A stretch of 5,080 nucleotides of DNA from Dehalococcoidales bacterium (GTDB taxonomy: Bacteria > Chloroflexota > Dehalococcoidia > Dehalococcoidales > ARS1013), in assembly GCA_002690375.1 (NCBI GenBank), contig NZEH01000046.1, forward strand, positions 6,598 to 11,677. The letters run 5' to 3'. Positions 1 to 5,080 of the stretch are shown piece by piece (position 1 is the first letter of the stretch; every line of letters starts with the position of its first letter). A program made the translations under genes and the position numbers. The notes under the pieces are model-generated. The model searched no databases. It saw nothing but the letters and a program-made list of their open reading frames with translations, and was not told where the DNA came from.

Positions 1-200
1 GTAGCCAAAGCCTGGCTTACCCCTGTCGAACAACCATAGGGATTCTCATTGGCGTCCAGCTTGATGATAGTTTCCATAGAAACTTCAACCTCGCCCTTTA
101 GAGTTTTTGGTGGCTTGCTGGCAGCATAGCCGCTAAAGCTAACCAGATCACGACGCATCAGCCTCTCTATGCCTTCAGAAGAACTAGAAATAGCCACCAT
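1..200 (-). CDS. hisC: Histidinol-phosphate aminotransferase, N-terminal part (partial, cut by window edge)
   Basis: HisC is a PLP-dependent, fold-type I aminotransferase that makes L-histidinol phosphate from imidazole-acetol phosphate using glutamate. Only 66 codons plus 2 bases are visible, beginning MVAISSSSEGIERLM. The family signature is IIKLDANENPYG at residues 45-56, the conserved substrate and cofactor entry segment of HisC. It is preceded by LVSFSGYAASKPPKTL, which matches the usual position of the 'L..Y.pgkp' segment. The PLP lysine and the rest of the fold lie outside the window. I chose the ATG at 200 because a G-rich Shine-Dalgarno-like GGGGG ends 5 nt before it and a TGA stop immediately precedes it in frame. 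A second in-frame ATG at 158 has GAGAGG only 3 nt away, which is poorer spacing. It follows hisD by 93 nt on the same strand, so it is probably the fourth his gene of the operon. Confidence 0.9.
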   Translation of the reverse strand, partial: MVAISSSSEGIERLMRRDLVSFSGYAASKPPKTLKGEVEVSMETIIKLDANENPYGCSTGVSQALA

Positions 201-293: not shown

Positions 294-1616
294 TTAACCC
301 ATCTCCAGCCGTTTCTCCACCGCCCGGGCATGAGCTTCAAATCCTTCAGCCCGTGCAATAGTAATGGCCGCCGACCCCAGCTCTCTCAAGCTAGTATCAG
401 TTACCGTAACCACATTTATATACTTTAAAAAATCGGTTATATTAAGCGGCGAGCTAAACCATGCTGTGCCACCAGTTGGCAAAGCATGACTCGGTCCAGC
501 CACATAGTCACCCAAGACCACCGTTGGCTTCTTGCCAACAAATATACACCCGGCGTTAGTTATCTGAGGAATATAAGCAGTGGCCGTTTGTACCATCAGA
601 CAAAGGTGCTCCGGGGCATATAGATTGGCCAGCCTTATTGCCTCACCAGTAGTTGACACCACCGCTATTATACCCCCATTTGCCAGAGACTGGACAGCAA
701 TATCTTTTCGCTTAAGAGTAGCCAGCTGACGCTCCACCTCTCTACTTACTTCATCGGCTAGCCGCTGTGAAGTAGTTATCAAAATAGCCGAAGCTAATGG
801 ATCATGCTCCGCCTGAGCTAAAAGGTCACTGGCACAGTATTCCGGATTAGCCGTCTCATCGGCGATAATTACCACCTCACTCGGCCCCTGAAGTCCATCA
901 ATGTCAACCACTCCATAGACGAGCTTCTTTGCTAGCATAACAAAGATATTTCCCGGGCCACAAATCTTACCCACCTTAGGGACAGACTGGGTACCAAAGG
1001 CTAAGGCTGCAACTGCCTGAGCACCACCAATGCCAAAAATACTATCAACCCCTGAAATATCAGCAGCAACCAATGTTGCCGCCGGCACTACCCCATCTGA
1101 TGCAGGTGGCGTAGCCAGGATAACCTCCTTGACCCCGGCCACCTTAGCCGGTATGGCACTCATCAGTACCGTTGACGGATAGCAGGCGGTACCGCCGGGA
1201 GCATAAACACCGACACGCTCCAATGTGCGTACCAGGGTGCCGGGCCCCATCTTAGCCGCACCAGCCAAGACAGCGTCTTTCTGGGCCATATGAAAGGAGC
1301 GTACCCGTTCTGCGGCAAGCTTCAGCGCTGATAAGAGCTCAGGCTCTATCTGCCGATAGGCCCTATTTACCTCATCCCTAGCTACCACAAGTGAGCCAAG
1401 CTCCATCCGATCAATCTTAAGGCTATAGTCAATAAGAGCGACATCGCCTCTACTTCGCACCTCATCAATAATTTGCTTAACCGCTTGCTCCGGATCATCG
1501 GTGCCGAACATCTCCTTGAGACTCTGCTTTAGCGCTGGTGAAACAGGGTAAGAACCAGATAATGCCTGTCTTTCTAGCAACGATTTTGCTTGCTTAAAAC
1601 CCTTAACTATTCTCAA
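294..1616 (-). CDS. hisD: Histidinol dehydrogenase
   Basis: HisD is a zinc-dependent cytoplasmic homodimer that carries out the last two steps of the pathway: histidinol to histidinal to histidine, with two NAD+. From the TTG start the protein has 440 residues, normal for the family. Visible motifs are VYAPGG (137-142), GIGGAQAV (195-202), GPGN (220-223), and AQAEHDP with the zinc ligands Gln268 and His271. The catalytic pair Glu336-His337 lies in YAPEH, the zinc ligand Asp370 in LGDYVAGPSHALPTGG, and the zinc ligand His429 in GFEAHARA near the C-terminus. These correspond to E. coli Q259, H262, E326/H327, D360 and H419. The TTG at 1616 is preferred because GGAGG (1630-1626) sits 9 nt upstream, it begins 1 nt after the hisG stop, and the protein then opens RIVKGFKQAKSLL as HisD proteins do. 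An in-frame ATG at 1694 would add 26 residues (MPPAPSRVRE...) encoded by hisG sequence in another frame, which look non-native. All catalytic residues are present, so an active enzyme is expected. Confidence 0.97.
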   Translation of the reverse strand: MRIVKGFKQAKSLLERQALSGSYPVSPALKQSLKEMFGTDDPEQAVKQIIDEVRSRGDVALIDYSLKIDRMELGSLVVARDEVNRAYRQIEPELLSALKLAAERVRSFHMAQKDAVLAGAAKMGPGTLVRTLERVGVYAPGGTACYPSTVLMSAIPAKVAGVKEVILATPPASDGVVPAATLVAADISGVDSIFGIGGAQAVAALAFGTQSVPKVGKICGPGNIFVMLAKKLVYGVVDIDGLQGPSEVVIIADETANPEYCASDLLAQAEHDPLASAILITTSQRLADEVSREVERQLATLKRKDIAVQSLANGGIIAVVSTTGEAIRLANLYAPEHLCLMVQTATAYIPQITNAGCIFVGKKPTVVLGDYVAGPSHALPTGGTAWFSSPLNITDFLKYINVVTVTDTSLRELGSAAITIARAEGFEAHARAVEKRLEMG

Positions 1617-1617
1617 T

Positions 1618-3039
1618 TTAGATTGCCTCCACCACGTCCCCAAGCGTCTTGATAATAGACTGCATTCTCTCACCCTTGACGGAGCTGGCGGCACTTATAG
1701 TATTGCCAATCAGACAGGCAGTTGAGGTAAAAAGAGTGTCTATAATCTTGAGGTTATGTCGGGCTATAGTCCGCCCGGTCTCGGTATTCTCAATCAGCAA
1801 ATCTGCGTCCTCGGGTAAGAAAGCTTCAGTAGCCCCCCAAGTAGGAATCACCCGGTACATGCCCAGGTGATTAGTTCTGGCATACTTGTCGGCTATATTT
1901 ATATATTCTGAAGCTACCCGATAAGGTAGATTACTCTCGCTGCTAAGCCTCCTTAGGCCATCACTACCGTCTGCAGGCACATCTTGGCTAACAACAGCTA
2001 CTATTCTTACTCTGCCGTATTTAAGGTCTAAAAGCTCTGCTACTGGGCTGGACGGAAACTGATAGAGATGCTCACTGAGCCAATCTCTACCGGTAATAGC
2101 CAAATCAAAATTGCCATTGGCTACCTGCAATGGCATATCTTGAGGTCTAATCACCTTGATTTGCACTCCATCCAGACTGCTTATCGGTCGACGACTACCC
2201 ACCGCTGACGGGTAATCGTCAATCTGAATTTCAGCTTGGTCTAATATGCGACGGACATGCTTTTGCTGATGCCCATCAGGTAGAGCTAATCTAACTACAT
2301 CATCAGACACCTCTCCAGCAAAGGGCAATCCTATCACTTCTGACATCTTCGTTTCCTCTAATGAAGAGGGGCTCTTCTCAGTCGGTAGTATGTTATCGGC
2401 AATAGAAGCGAGTATCTCAGCCATGTCTTTGACTTTCAGGCTATACCTATTGGCTACTAGATAGGCGTTGAAATCAAGGACTTTGCGTATAGGTGCTAAG
2501 CCATGGTTAAGAACTTCCCTCCCCGTTTTCATCGGTAGCAACGCCAGATCAGCGCTCTCTGGGGGATAAGCCTCAGCCGCTCCCCAAAGGGGATATATGC
2601 TAAAGCGTCTCAGTCTCGTATGTGCCGCAAACCACTCGGCCAGATTAGGATACTCACTGGCAATGCGTATAATATCCCACTTTGTCGCCAATTCTTCTAT
2701 ATTGGCTATTCCATTACACCCGGCAGCCATCATATAGAGGGCACCATCACCATAGCCCAAGTCTCTTACCTTAACCAAGGCGCTACTGGGATACTTAACC
2801 AGAAGCTCCTCAACCCAATCCAGCCCACAAATCCCCAAATCATAGTTACCTATCGCTACCTGAATAGGAATATCCTTCTCGTTAAACATCTTGGCTGAAA
2901 GCTCCGGAAACCTTTGTGTACTAAGGCGGTAAGAGCGCGCCCCCTCATGGTAACCAGTAAGTCCCCAGCCGGCTCTCTCAAATATGGCTGTCGTCGCAGT
3001 TAAAAGACTCCCCTTAGGCAAAGCCAGTTTTATTGGCAT
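1618..3039 (-). CDS. hisG: ATP phosphoribosyltransferase, tandem fusion of two short-form HisG modules
   Basis: HisG catalyses the first committed step of histidine synthesis, ATP + PRPP to phosphoribosyl-ATP. The protein has 473 residues, about twice the short form (roughly 200-230) and well above the long form (roughly 290). It is two HisG folds in a row, not a long-form enzyme: the C-terminal half is a second catalytic domain, not an ACT-like regulatory domain. Module 1 spans about 1-218: LALPKGSLL (5-13), DIPIQVAIGNYDLGICGLDW (56-75), RIASEYPNL (125-133), WGAAEA (152-157) and a PRPP-loop position reading KTGREV (171-176). After a linker at about 219-245, module 2 spans about 246-473: LALPDG (251-256), VIRPQDMPLQVANGNFDLAI (296-315), RVASEYINI (374-382), WGATEA (401-406) and ETGRTI (420-425). 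Matching blocks fall in the same order with similar spacing. Absence of an ACT domain fits the HisZ encoded 4 nt upstream. The start is the ATG at 3039 with AGGAAG and TAGG upstream. Which module is catalytic cannot be settled by eye; module 2 has the better PRPP loop. Confidence 0.9.
   Translation of the reverse strand: MPIKLALPKGSLLTATTAIFERAGWGLTGYHEGARSYRLSTQRFPELSAKMFNEKDIPIQVAIGNYDLGICGLDWVEELLVKYPSSALVKVRDLGYGDGALYMMAAGCNGIANIEELATKWDIIRIASEYPNLAEWFAAHTRLRRFSIYPLWGAAEAYPPESADLALLPMKTGREVLNHGLAPIRKVLDFNAYLVANRYSLKVKDMAEILASIADNILPTEKSPSSLEETKMSEVIGLPFAGEVSDDVVRLALPDGHQQKHVRRILDQAEIQIDDYPSAVGSRRPISSLDGVQIKVIRPQDMPLQVANGNFDLAITGRDWLSEHLYQFPSSPVAELLDLKYGRVRIVAVVSQDVPADGSDGLRRLSSESNLPYRVASEYINIADKYARTNHLGMYRVIPTWGATEAFLPEDADLLIENTETGRTIARHNLKIIDTLFTSTACLIGNTISAASSVKGERMQSIIKTLGDVVEAI
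2344..2358 (-). promoter_or_regulatory. Internal ribosome-binding site and ATG in the hisG linker
   Basis: Within the linker between the two HisG modules, the minus strand reads AGAGGAAACGAAGATG. GAGGA (2358-2354) is separated by 7 nt from an in-frame ATG at 2346-2344, which is Met232 of the fusion. Translation from here would give a 242-residue protein starting MSEVIGLPFAGEV and containing the whole of module 2, the length of an ordinary short-form HisG. Nearby Glu-Glu codons could create such a motif by chance. Seen: sequence and spacing. Inferred: use as a start, or a relic of a once separate second hisG gene. Confidence 0.45.
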
Positions 3040-3043
3040 TCTA

Positions 3044-4279
3044 TTACCTACTTCCTAGCAAGGCTAACACTTCAGCAGCAGACTCAACCCTAGATTTCGC
3101 ACCGTTAGCCTTATCATTCAGGATAAACTTGGGAGCCTTACTTTGAACTTCAAGAATAAAGCCGTAGCTATCCGTCTTTTCTCCTCCGAGAGCAAGTTCA
3201 GCAATATACCCAACTTCACGAAGACGGCTAGCGACACTGAACCCTTCCTTCGTAACCTCTGGCACAACACGAACTAGAATTCTTTTAGATATTGGTTCCG
3301 CCGAAGTTTCTGGCTTCACTAACTTCATCAAGCCATCCAGATAAAGAGCAAAACCGGCCGCTGGCGTATCCCGACCGCCCATTAGCGGAATCAGGTCGTC
3401 ATATCGACCACCGCCGCCAACGAGCTCCACTCCCATAAAGAGCTGGAAAATAACCCCTGTATAGTATTCAAAGCCCTTTCCTGAAACCAGGTCAATCTGG
3501 CAGTCATAACCCAAGGCTTGGATAAGCTCAGTAATAGCTATAAAATTATTAAGTGGAGCCTCAAATTCAGGCAGTTTTTGACTAAATAGCGCCTTAATAT
3601 TTTTTAGAAATCCGGACGACCTCCCTTTCATATCCAGTAACAGAGTCAAAGCCTCCATCAACTCAGGTTTATCAGACTTTAAATGTGCTAACGCCTCAGT
3701 ATCGCCATCAAGGAACTGGTCAAATATTCTGGCCTGCTCTGCGGGATCTAGTTCAAATTTAGCCAAAATTGCCCTTACCAGTCCAGCGTGGGACAAGCGC
3801 ACCTTGATACCATTAAGTCCCAAACTCTGCAAAACATTAAGAGCCAAAGCTAGCAGTTCAACATCAGCCATAGCCTGGTTAACACCGATAAGCTCGGCAC
3901 CACACTGCCATCTTTCCCTTGACTTTTGCCCCGTTTCCTCAAAGACAAAAACATTGGTCACATAAAAAAGTTTGGTCCGTCCTTGCTCAGCCATGCTCTC
4001 AATATAAAGCCTGGTAACAGGAATAGTGCCATCAGGCCTAAGTACCACTCTCTCACCGCTCCAACCATCCCAATCAAGGAAGGAATACACCCTGTTTAGC
4101 CTATCAGGTGTAAGTGTTCCGGTGGCGGTAAATAAGTAAAGATACTCAAGGGTTGGTGTCCTGACCTCGTGGTAGCCCCACTTAAGACAGCAGTCCCTGA
4201 AGGCTGTCTCAATTAGACGAAAATTTGACATTTCCTCAGGAGCGAGGTCACGAAAGCCCCTACATCTTTGAATTTTCAT
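3044..4279 (-). CDS. hisZ: ATP phosphoribosyltransferase regulatory subunit (HisRS-like)
   Basis: HisZ is a class II aminoacyl-tRNA-synthetase paralogue that binds short-form HisG, activates it and confers histidine feedback inhibition. The 411-residue protein has the synthetase core: an N-terminal GFRDLAPEE (8-16), motif 2-like VVLRPDGTIPVTRLY (78-92), ERWQCGAELIG (122-132), FEYYTGVIFQLF (270-281) and VGGGGRYDDLI (287-297). Residues from about 331 to the end form a C-terminal domain like the HisRS anticodon-binding fold but divergent. Several features point to HisZ rather than a working HisRS. Motif 2 has RPDGT instead of RPEGT. The 'RGLDYY' arginine motif is replaced by SGKGFEYY (266-273). 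The motif 3 region GFALYLDGL (309-317) lacks the usual E-R. Position directly before hisG supports this. The start is the ATG at 4279, with AAGGA (4290-4286) 6 nt upstream. It is the first recognisable gene of the operon. A divergent HisRS is possible but less likely. Confidence 0.88.
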   Translation of the reverse strand: MKIQRCRGFRDLAPEEMSNFRLIETAFRDCCLKWGYHEVRTPTLEYLYLFTATGTLTPDRLNRVYSFLDWDGWSGERVVLRPDGTIPVTRLYIESMAEQGRTKLFYVTNVFVFEETGQKSRERWQCGAELIGVNQAMADVELLALALNVLQSLGLNGIKVRLSHAGLVRAILAKFELDPAEQARIFDQFLDGDTEALAHLKSDKPELMEALTLLLDMKGRSSGFLKNIKALFSQKLPEFEAPLNNFIAITELIQALGYDCQIDLVSGKGFEYYTGVIFQLFMGVELVGGGGRYDDLIPLMGGRDTPAAGFALYLDGLMKLVKPETSAEPISKRILVRVVPEVTKEGFSVASRLREVGYIAELALGGEKTDSYGFILEVQSKAPKFILNDKANGAKSRVESAAEVLALLGSR

Positions 4280-4361: not shown

Positions 4362-4457
4362 TTATACTTGCTTGAAATGACCCTCTTTGTACTTCGAGAA
4401 GTAGTACAACACAGACCACTCAGCGATATCCTTCATAATTTGGCACATCTCATTCAC
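4362..4457 (-). CDS. Candidate 31-codon ORF coupled to the methyltransferase stop
   Basis: A GTG at 4457-4455 overlaps the methyltransferase TGA in the sequence GTGA, a classic translational-coupling arrangement. GGAG lies 9 nt upstream of it (4470-4467). The product begins VNEMCQIMKDIAEWSVL and ends KEGHFKQV before TAA; internal ATGs at 4448 and 4436 are alternative starts. Its composition is protein-like: amphipathic, aromatic-rich (WSVLYYFSKY), with no low-complexity stretch. The same frame stays open back to two TGA codons at 4514-4509, so about 48 codons in total are open. A C-terminal remnant of a lost gene is an alternative to a real small protein. I do not recognise a family. Confidence 0.35.
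   Translation of the reverse strand: MNEMCQIMKDIAEWSVLYYFSKYKEGHFKQV
4387..4409. repeat. 7-bp inverted repeat with 9-nt spacer (possible operator)
   Basis: TTGTACT (4387-4393) and AGTACAA (4403-4409) are exact reverse complements around a 9-nt spacer, giving a 23-bp dyad whose centre is about 120 bp upstream of the hisZ start. The size and symmetry suit a dimeric repressor site, and it lies near the TATAAC hexamer. It also falls inside the 31-codon candidate ORF, and no U-tract follows on the minus strand, so it is not a convincing terminator. The function is inference. Confidence 0.3.
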
Positions 4458-5080
4458 AGACCAATTCTCCGGTCTAAAGTAAAAACTTCCTCTTTTGAAT
4501 CTTCCGCCTCATCACCCCAAACATCCCATCCGGGAGCTCTCTTACGAGCAAATAACTCTATGCGGGGCAAATCACCCATAAGTTGAACTATTCTATCTCT
4601 CACTTCATCTGGTTTTTGGCTATGGTTATATCTTGTCGCCTCCACCAGTTGCCTCACATTATGCTCAACTGGTTTTACCTTGCCTCGCCTGCCTAGTAAA
4701 CATAGTTCTGTTCCCTTCATTGTCCAATATCCGTAATAGCAAACTTGTTTACCACTTTTTTCCTTTTTATTCCAGACAAAGGCAACAGTGGCATACTCAA
4801 AGCTCCAACTTTTCATTATTTCTATTGCAAAGGGCAAGTGTCCATCCGTTGTCCACAAAAACAAGACACTATTTTCATCGGCTAAGTTCTCAACTGGCAA
4901 TAGTTTTAACTCATCAACTGTCATAGTTGGATACTTTTCTTCAAGCCGAATTGTTCTATGCAGACTGGGGCTATCCTCCCTCATTTTCCCAGAACGGATC
5001 CCCTTACTCCCAAGACCAGTAAATTGCCACGGGGGGTCAGCGTAGATAATTTGATATTTCTTATTCGGGAAGTTAATTGG
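4454..5080 (-). CDS. MT-A70 family adenine-N6 methyltransferase (5' end outside window)
   Basis: This is a SAM-dependent adenine methyltransferase of the MT-A70 superfamily, which in bacteria and phages usually methylates DNA adenine at N6. The reading frame is open from the window edge, giving 208 visible residues. KYQIIYADPPWQF (8-20) carries the catalytic DPPW motif at 15-18, so the true start is probably only a few residues beyond the edge. Further family blocks are VLFLWTTDGHLPFAIEIM (72-89), VAFVWNKK (99-106), WTMKGTELCLLGRRGK (119-134), the NHSQKP block (152-157) followed by DEVRDRI, and the C-terminal RIELFARKRAPGWDVWGDE (173-191). All expected motifs are present and the length is near complete for stand-alone members. 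An ATG at 4984 lies after DPPW and cannot be the functional start. No restriction endonuclease is visible. It is probably an orphan enzyme of phage or mobile-element ancestry, unrelated to histidine synthesis. The target site cannot be read from the sequence. Confidence 0.9.
   Translation of the reverse strand, partial: PINFPNKKYQIIYADPPWQFTGLGSKGIRSGKMREDSPSLHRTIRLEEKYPTMTVDELKLLPVENLADENSVLFLWTTDGHLPFAIEIMKSWSFEYATVAFVWNKKEKSGKQVCYYGYWTMKGTELCLLGRRGKVKPVEHNVRQLVEATRYNHSQKPDEVRDRIVQLMGDLPRIELFARKRAPGWDVWGDEAEDSKEEVFTLDRRIGL

Follow-up and report, generated by a model that had tools for sequence, protein, structure and literature searches.

A fused tandem HisG of Dehalococcoides and its relatives in which sequence motifs suggest that only the second copy keeps the substrate-binding site

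In the 5,080-nucleotide stretch of Dehalococcoidales DNA analysed here (the window), hisG, the gene for the first enzyme of histidine synthesis (ATP phosphoribosyltransferase, ATPPRT), encodes two HisG cores in a single open frame. Motif comparisons suggest that only the second copy keeps the substrate-binding site, a pattern common to relatives such as Dehalococcoides. In the reading that we consider probable, the fused protein would be a covalent, asymmetric pseudo-dimer in which half 2 provides the sole working site, half 1 serves as a pseudo-enzyme partner, and HisZ regulates the pair. We judge the fused HisG to be widespread in one bacterial group and apparently undescribed in the open-licence PMC literature that was found.

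The fused gene and its neighbours

The tandem hisG occupies positions 1618..3039 on the minus strand and encodes 473 residues between an ATG start and a TAA stop. Half 1 (residues 1-218; 2386..3039, minus strand) and half 2 (residues 246-473; 1621..2304, minus strand) both have the HisG fold, with a degenerate PRPP loop in the first and an intact one in the second, and are joined by a linker of residues 219-245 (2305..2385, minus strand). A preliminary description, made from the letters alone, had proposed such a fusion with these module limits, to be checked by a profile search of each half against the HisG family. Scored with TIGR00070, residues 1-218 and 246-473 gave 123.3 and 118.5 bits, both above the NCBI cut-off of 75.75, and the whole protein gave 237 bits. 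A Pfam scan placed PF01634 on two stretches for a total of 204.5 bits (91.6 and 117.1 bits for the halves scored alone; cut-off 25.5); this was the only family matched, and the scan gave no match to a C-terminal ACT-like regulatory domain. When compared by BLASTP, the halves align with each other at 112 bits (E 3e-35; 69 of 221 residues identical, 31%), a resemblance far beyond chance. An AlphaFold2 model of the fused protein (pTM 0.80) matches HisG structures over both halves and is of low confidence between them, at residues 221-243 (pLDDT <50), which places the proposed limits correctly to within a few residues. Profile scores, mutual alignment and model together bear out a tandem fusion in one frame. 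Among 434 fused proteins, the stretch between positions 222 and 247 has 12-39 residues, with a median of 25. The repeated blocks by which the modules had been recognized stand for the most part: LALP, D-I/M-P-x-QVAxGN, R-I/V-ASEY and WGA-A/T-EA occur in both halves. TGR is not a shared functional block, since in half 1 it lies in the degenerate loop LLPMKTGRE and is not conserved among relatives.

HisG is described in a short form of 214 +/- 9 residues and a long form of 292 +/- 11 residues (PMC8305728), and the fusion is, as had been supposed, unlike either, being a covalent tandem of 473 residues within a his cluster and beside hisZ. With two cores it departs from the short form (about 214 residues, one core), whose HisZ partner it shares. 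In comparison with short-form HisG (HisGS) and HisZ, as found in the ATPPRT of Psychrobacter arcticus or Acinetobacter baumannii, it has two modules per chain, one without the PRPP loop and the other with DGH in the place of KGR. It differs from long-form HisG (HisGL) in that no C-terminal regulatory domain was matched, the second half is another HisG core, and hisZ is present.

The minus strand of the window carries a segment of a histidine gene cluster, made up of a hisZ-like gene, the tandem hisG, hisD and the probable start of hisC. The hisZ-like gene (3044..4279, minus strand), for an ATPPRT regulatory subunit that is a HisRS paralogue, lies upstream of hisG and stops 4 bases before its start, in agreement with the adjacency reported earlier. 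Although 22 families match its product, none does so above its cut-off (the best is TIGR00443, 225.7 bits; cut-off 271.65), so that this HisZ may have diverged to suit its fused partner. In each of 12 genomes tried, a hisS above its own cut-off was found that is distinct from the HisZ-like gene beside hisG. Where fused loci offered at least 1300 bases of room, hisZ directly preceded hisG, on the same strand, in 76 of 79, and lay 467-1007 bases upstream in the other three. On the downstream side, hisD (294..1616, minus strand; PF00815, 511 bits) has its longest open frame from 1694 and probably starts from a TTG at 1616, which is 1 base past the hisG stop and follows a GGAGG site that, as read from the sequence, lies within the end of hisG. 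It adjoins the fused hisG in 75 of 84 loci with room; in the other nine it is on the same strand, overlapping by 64 bases in one and lying 451-940 bases away in eight. The 99 fused loci behind these neighbour counts include a few from one and the same genome. The probable hisC start (3..200, minus strand), cut by the window end, has weak partial matches to histidinol-phosphate transaminase (E 6e-4 and 1e-3), and upstream of hisZ lies a fragment of an MT-A70-type (N6-adenine methyltransferase-like) protein (4454-5080, minus strand; PF05063, 90.3 bits).

Distribution among genomes

The 120 best matches listed in each of three protein searches, taken from several thousand, are fused relatives of 421-490 residues with query coverage of 89-100%. 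They include proteins of Dehalococcoides mccartyi (P0121, 468 residues) and Dehalogenimonas (P0123, P0126, P0129), which answers the earlier question of whether other genomes share the roughly 470-residue architecture. Database rows bearing a name label the fused protein plainly as 'ATP phosphoribosyltransferase'. From contigs representing one genome per species, the best 80 of 237 related places were taken, and their titles are Dehalococcoidia, Dehalococcoidales or narrower, or Chloroflexi/Chloroflexota, save two titled Deltaproteobacteria; these two loci and one protein named Tectomicrobia are the exceptions among the matches listed. The Deltaproteobacteria-titled MAGs (L051, L065) carry a fused HisG with 63% identity to that of the window, and are either mis-titled bins or cases of transfer.

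Our genome sample comprised 301 genomes from the phylum of a Dehalococcoidia MAG (G001, the genome of locus L010). A HisG match was present in 230 and two matches in 34; of the latter, 28 represent the fusion in one open frame, and the remaining six come from a pair of loci, from a broken gene or from a gapped match. In G300 and G258 (L112, L113), two genomes of the phylum, HisG is encoded by two unfused genes on different contigs, with open frames of 299 and 356-359 residues, and G032 may be similar. No further HisG match was found in any of the 28 fusion-bearing genomes of the sample, nor in the four other fusion-bearing genomes searched, and PRA-CH (HisI) was found in 27 of the 28. As the sole HisG in genomes with HisI, the fusion should supply PR-ATP. 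Dehalococcoides has been reported, under the name D. ethenogenes, to grow in minimal medium (PMC5764234), and its gene content is reported to cover every amino acid except methionine (PMC2930330).

Active-site motifs and origin of the halves

Motifs were counted in 434 distinct fused proteins, drawn from the window, 338 of 343 proteins found and the 99 fused loci, with identical proteins merged; five proteins shorter than 440 residues and loci L001-L009, L145, L146 and L150 were left out. The ordinary HisGs used for comparison (n=41) were 39 single-core loci, mostly the best-scoring, and two PDB sequences, a set that leans to typical HisGs, includes some long forms and excludes the gapped single HisG of L146. 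Residues of P. arcticus HisG (PaHisG) are numbered by subtracting one from the construct index, a rule verified on the R56A chain.

The PRPP loop, defined by the pattern [DE]xxx[TS]Gx[TS], survives intact in the second half of 433 of the 434 fused proteins (E417-N-T-E-T-G-R-T424 in the window; 1768..1791, minus strand) and in the first half of none (residues 168-175, L-P-M-K-T-G-R-E; 2515..2538, minus strand). All 41 ordinary HisGs have the loop, which was sought anywhere in their sequences and confirmed column by column at the aligned positions. Over 15 columns containing the loop, mean column entropy in 97 rows is 0.44 bits for half 2 versus 1.99 bits for half 1; long conserved stretches are carried by both halves. 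Two further half 2 residues are invariant in the 434 proteins, R298 (2146..2148, minus strand), the counterpart of PaHisG Arg73, whose described role concerns the ATP gamma-phosphate (PMC10795190), and E405, the counterpart of Glu163. R283-R284 (2188..2193, minus strand), with arginine at 283 in 419 and at 284 in 427 of 434 proteins, is the probable counterpart of Arg56/Lys57, in an alignment that is ambiguous by 2.

At the KGR position, half 2 has D255-G256-H257 (2269..2277, minus strand) in all 434 fused proteins. Ordinary HisGs most often have K-G-R there (K in 26 of 41, R in 20 of 41), and D and H are absent from that place in the 41. With arginine in only 20 of 41 at the position of Arg32, the KGR motif (Lys30-Gly31-Arg32 of PaHisG) is a weak criterion for the short form; the fusion has DGH in half 2 and, in the window, KGS in half 1. 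The earlier claim that both modules are full and catalytic is not supported in view of these two features, the broken PRPP loop of half 1 and the DGH of half 2, each of which is universal in the set.

Half 1 takes different forms in two subclades, A with 311 rows and B with 123. In subclade A it keeps KGR (or KGS, KGK) at the motif position, which is K9-G10-S11 in the window (3007..3015, minus strand), with K9 in all 304 rows that reach residue 9 (seven fall short), and its counterpart of Arg73 is H, Q, N or K. In subclade B, residue 9 is T in 121 rows and A in two, and residue 11 is D in 116, giving mostly T-G-D in place of K-G-R; the Arg73 place is R in all 123, and half 2 retains the PRPP loop and DGH. 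The named records of subclade B (which includes L141, L142 and L143) are Dehalococcoidia, Chloroflexota and one Tectomicrobia MAG. The half 1 pocket has thus drifted differently in A and B, while half 2 has retained its motifs. A basic residue (R or K) occupies position 35 or 38 of half 1 in 433 of 434 proteins; the window has R35-S36-Y37-R38 (2926..2937, minus strand), and R35 aligns with PaHisG Arg56, the cross-interface arginine. The apparent compensation between 35 and 38 is perfect in 97 of 97 rows and has one exception in the 434.

For a tree built with IQ-TREE under LG+C20+F+G4 PMSF, 22 fused proteins were entered as two halves each beside 37 ordinary HisGs, two of them the PDB sequences, which gave 81 rows. 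Each of the three sets (half 1, half 2 and ordinary HisGs) occupies one side of a branch, with support of 100/100, 99/96 and 100/99, a topology that fits one origin of the fusion. The stem of half 1 is the longer, at about 1.1 changes per column (1.0 plus 0.11 across the drawn root) versus 0.38 for half 2. With a root placed within the ordinary HisGs, the simplest interpretation would be one old duplication and fusion, followed by separate evolution of the halves.

The pseudo-dimer reading and its alternatives

We propose that one old tandem duplication and fusion placed the two subunits of the HisG homodimer in a single chain. Half 2, with its near-invariant PRPP loop and ATP-binding arginine, would contain the sole working active site, and half 1 would have lost PRPP binding and kept the HisG fold. 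The Arg56 of P. arcticus HisG is described as crossing from one subunit over the dimer interface to the PRPP pyrophosphate in the site of the other, a crossing that HisZ binding is proposed to favour (PMC9734150). By analogy, half 1 may lend an arginine across the interface to half 2; its arginine loop (R35/R38) would reach the half 2 site and aid pyrophosphate exit as Arg56 does in Psychrobacter HisG, and DGH, as a rebuilt KGR loop, would have to cover for the lost arginine. HisZ would still bind and regulate the fused protein, in a complex approximating (HisG-HisG)2(HisZ)4 with two active sites versus the usual four, and the altered HisG:HisZ stoichiometry that had been predicted is plausible on these grounds.

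Coupling between the halves was scored by mean-field DCA. The top pairs on all 434 rows seem, in our reading, to be driven by the subclade split. Within subclade A the strongest inter-half pair is S36-I425 (z 7.4), followed by A166-S359 (z 7.2); S36 adjoins R35, and I425 adjoins T424, the last threonine of the half 2 PRPP loop. The block formed by half 1 residues 31-38 and half 2 residues 417-428 is matched by 0.002 of same-size blocks in this subclade, and the other six of the seven blocks tested gave 0.577, 0.063, 0.728, 0.183, 0.207 and 0.954. S36-I425 had first been noticed in an exploratory run on all 434 rows, before the subclade A test, and on tree-aware pairs it was not significant under any of the three ways in which residue 36 was grouped (median p 0.5, 0.125 and 1). 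We take this coupling as weak evidence.

Some observations count against the pseudo-dimer. The KGR arginine is missing from half 2, and in PaHisG its replacement by alanine (R32A) cost 25-fold without HisZ; HisZ is reported to be able to restore impaired PaHisG active-site mutants (PMC9734150), so the enzyme could stay active after losing KGR from half 2. The KGR of half 1 in subclade A and R283/R284 of half 2 have also been kept, seemingly without need if the half 1 site is dead. Their retention, as if the half 1 pocket still bound an anion, makes a regulatory or a composite site possible.

If half 1 were regulatory, its KGR and R283/R284 of half 2 would form an anion pocket sensing AMP, ADP, ATP or histidine, while half 2 catalysed the reaction. 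Such a role is a refinement of the pseudo-dimer, compatible with it, and would account for the kept residues that the plain version leaves unexplained. However, half 1 of subclade B has no KGR, and the adjacent gene already supplies a HisZ-like regulator; we consider the idea somewhat unlikely. Somewhat unlikely as a whole, in our estimation, is a third ATPPRT architecture that would combine a catalytic/pseudo-catalytic HisG pair, a remade DGH pyrophosphate pocket, half 1 as a second allosteric sensor beside HisZ, and half the usual number of active sites. Reciprocal loss, by which neither half would be complete alone and one site would be assembled from the half 1 KGR loop and the half 2 PRPP loop, draws on the complementary losses of subclade A, where K9 (304/304) goes with a broken loop in half 1, and DGH with an unbroken loop in half 2. 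Subclade B has lost KGR from half 1 too (T at 9 in 121/123, D at 11 in 116/123) while half 2 kept its loop and DGH, so the half 1 motif is not required in all fused proteins and a composite site is disfavoured. In the available portion of the PaHisG paper (PMC9734150), Arg56 alone is described as donated by a neighbour. Nor do half 1 residues 7-13 stand out in their coupling to the half 2 loop, since 0.207 of same-size blocks score as high. These points make reciprocal loss improbable. Catalysis by both halves, each of which passes the TIGR00070 cut-off, was rejected on the PRPP loop of half 1, broken in 434/434, and is very improbable. We give as little credence to a move from ATPPRT chemistry to another reaction, which the DGH replacement in half 2 might suggest; the his gene cluster, the hisZ and hisD neighbours, the presence of HisI and the standing of the fusion as the sole HisG found in the genome all speak against it. 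The chance of an assembly error or pseudogene is negligible, as many assemblies and named isolates carry the fusion and both halves have long conserved stretches, and mis-assembly was ruled out by fused relatives in independent genomes and other assemblies.

Gene elongation has been described for hisA and hisF and proposed for hisB and hisD (PMC7284861). The fused hisG resembles these cases as an in-frame duplication and fusion of a his gene, but they are described as very early (PMC7284861), whereas the hisG fusion, among the records found here, occurs almost only in those of Dehalococcoidia/Chloroflexota. A hisG tandem is absent from the available portion of that paper, and from that of a his gene fusion survey whose table includes two Dehalococcoidetes genomes (PMC1963479). 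A search of open-licence PMC papers found none on the fused HisG.

Mammalian hexokinase I is likewise a tandem enzyme, with one half catalytic and the other dead. The likeness, that of a duplicated and fused enzyme with one half that would be dead, is one of principle only, as fold and reaction are unrelated. In a homodimer, the subunits that give and receive a residue cannot be mutated separately. For short-form ATPPRT it has been proposed that HisZ helps an arginine of one HisG subunit into the site of its neighbour (PMC9734150); with putative giver and receiver in one chain and different in sequence, this cross-subunit step would become testable residue by residue, and the fused HisG is well suited to studies of catalysis across subunits. 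In organisms such as Dehalococcoides, which are familiar from the remediation of chlorinated solvents, HisG has twice the usual short-form length.
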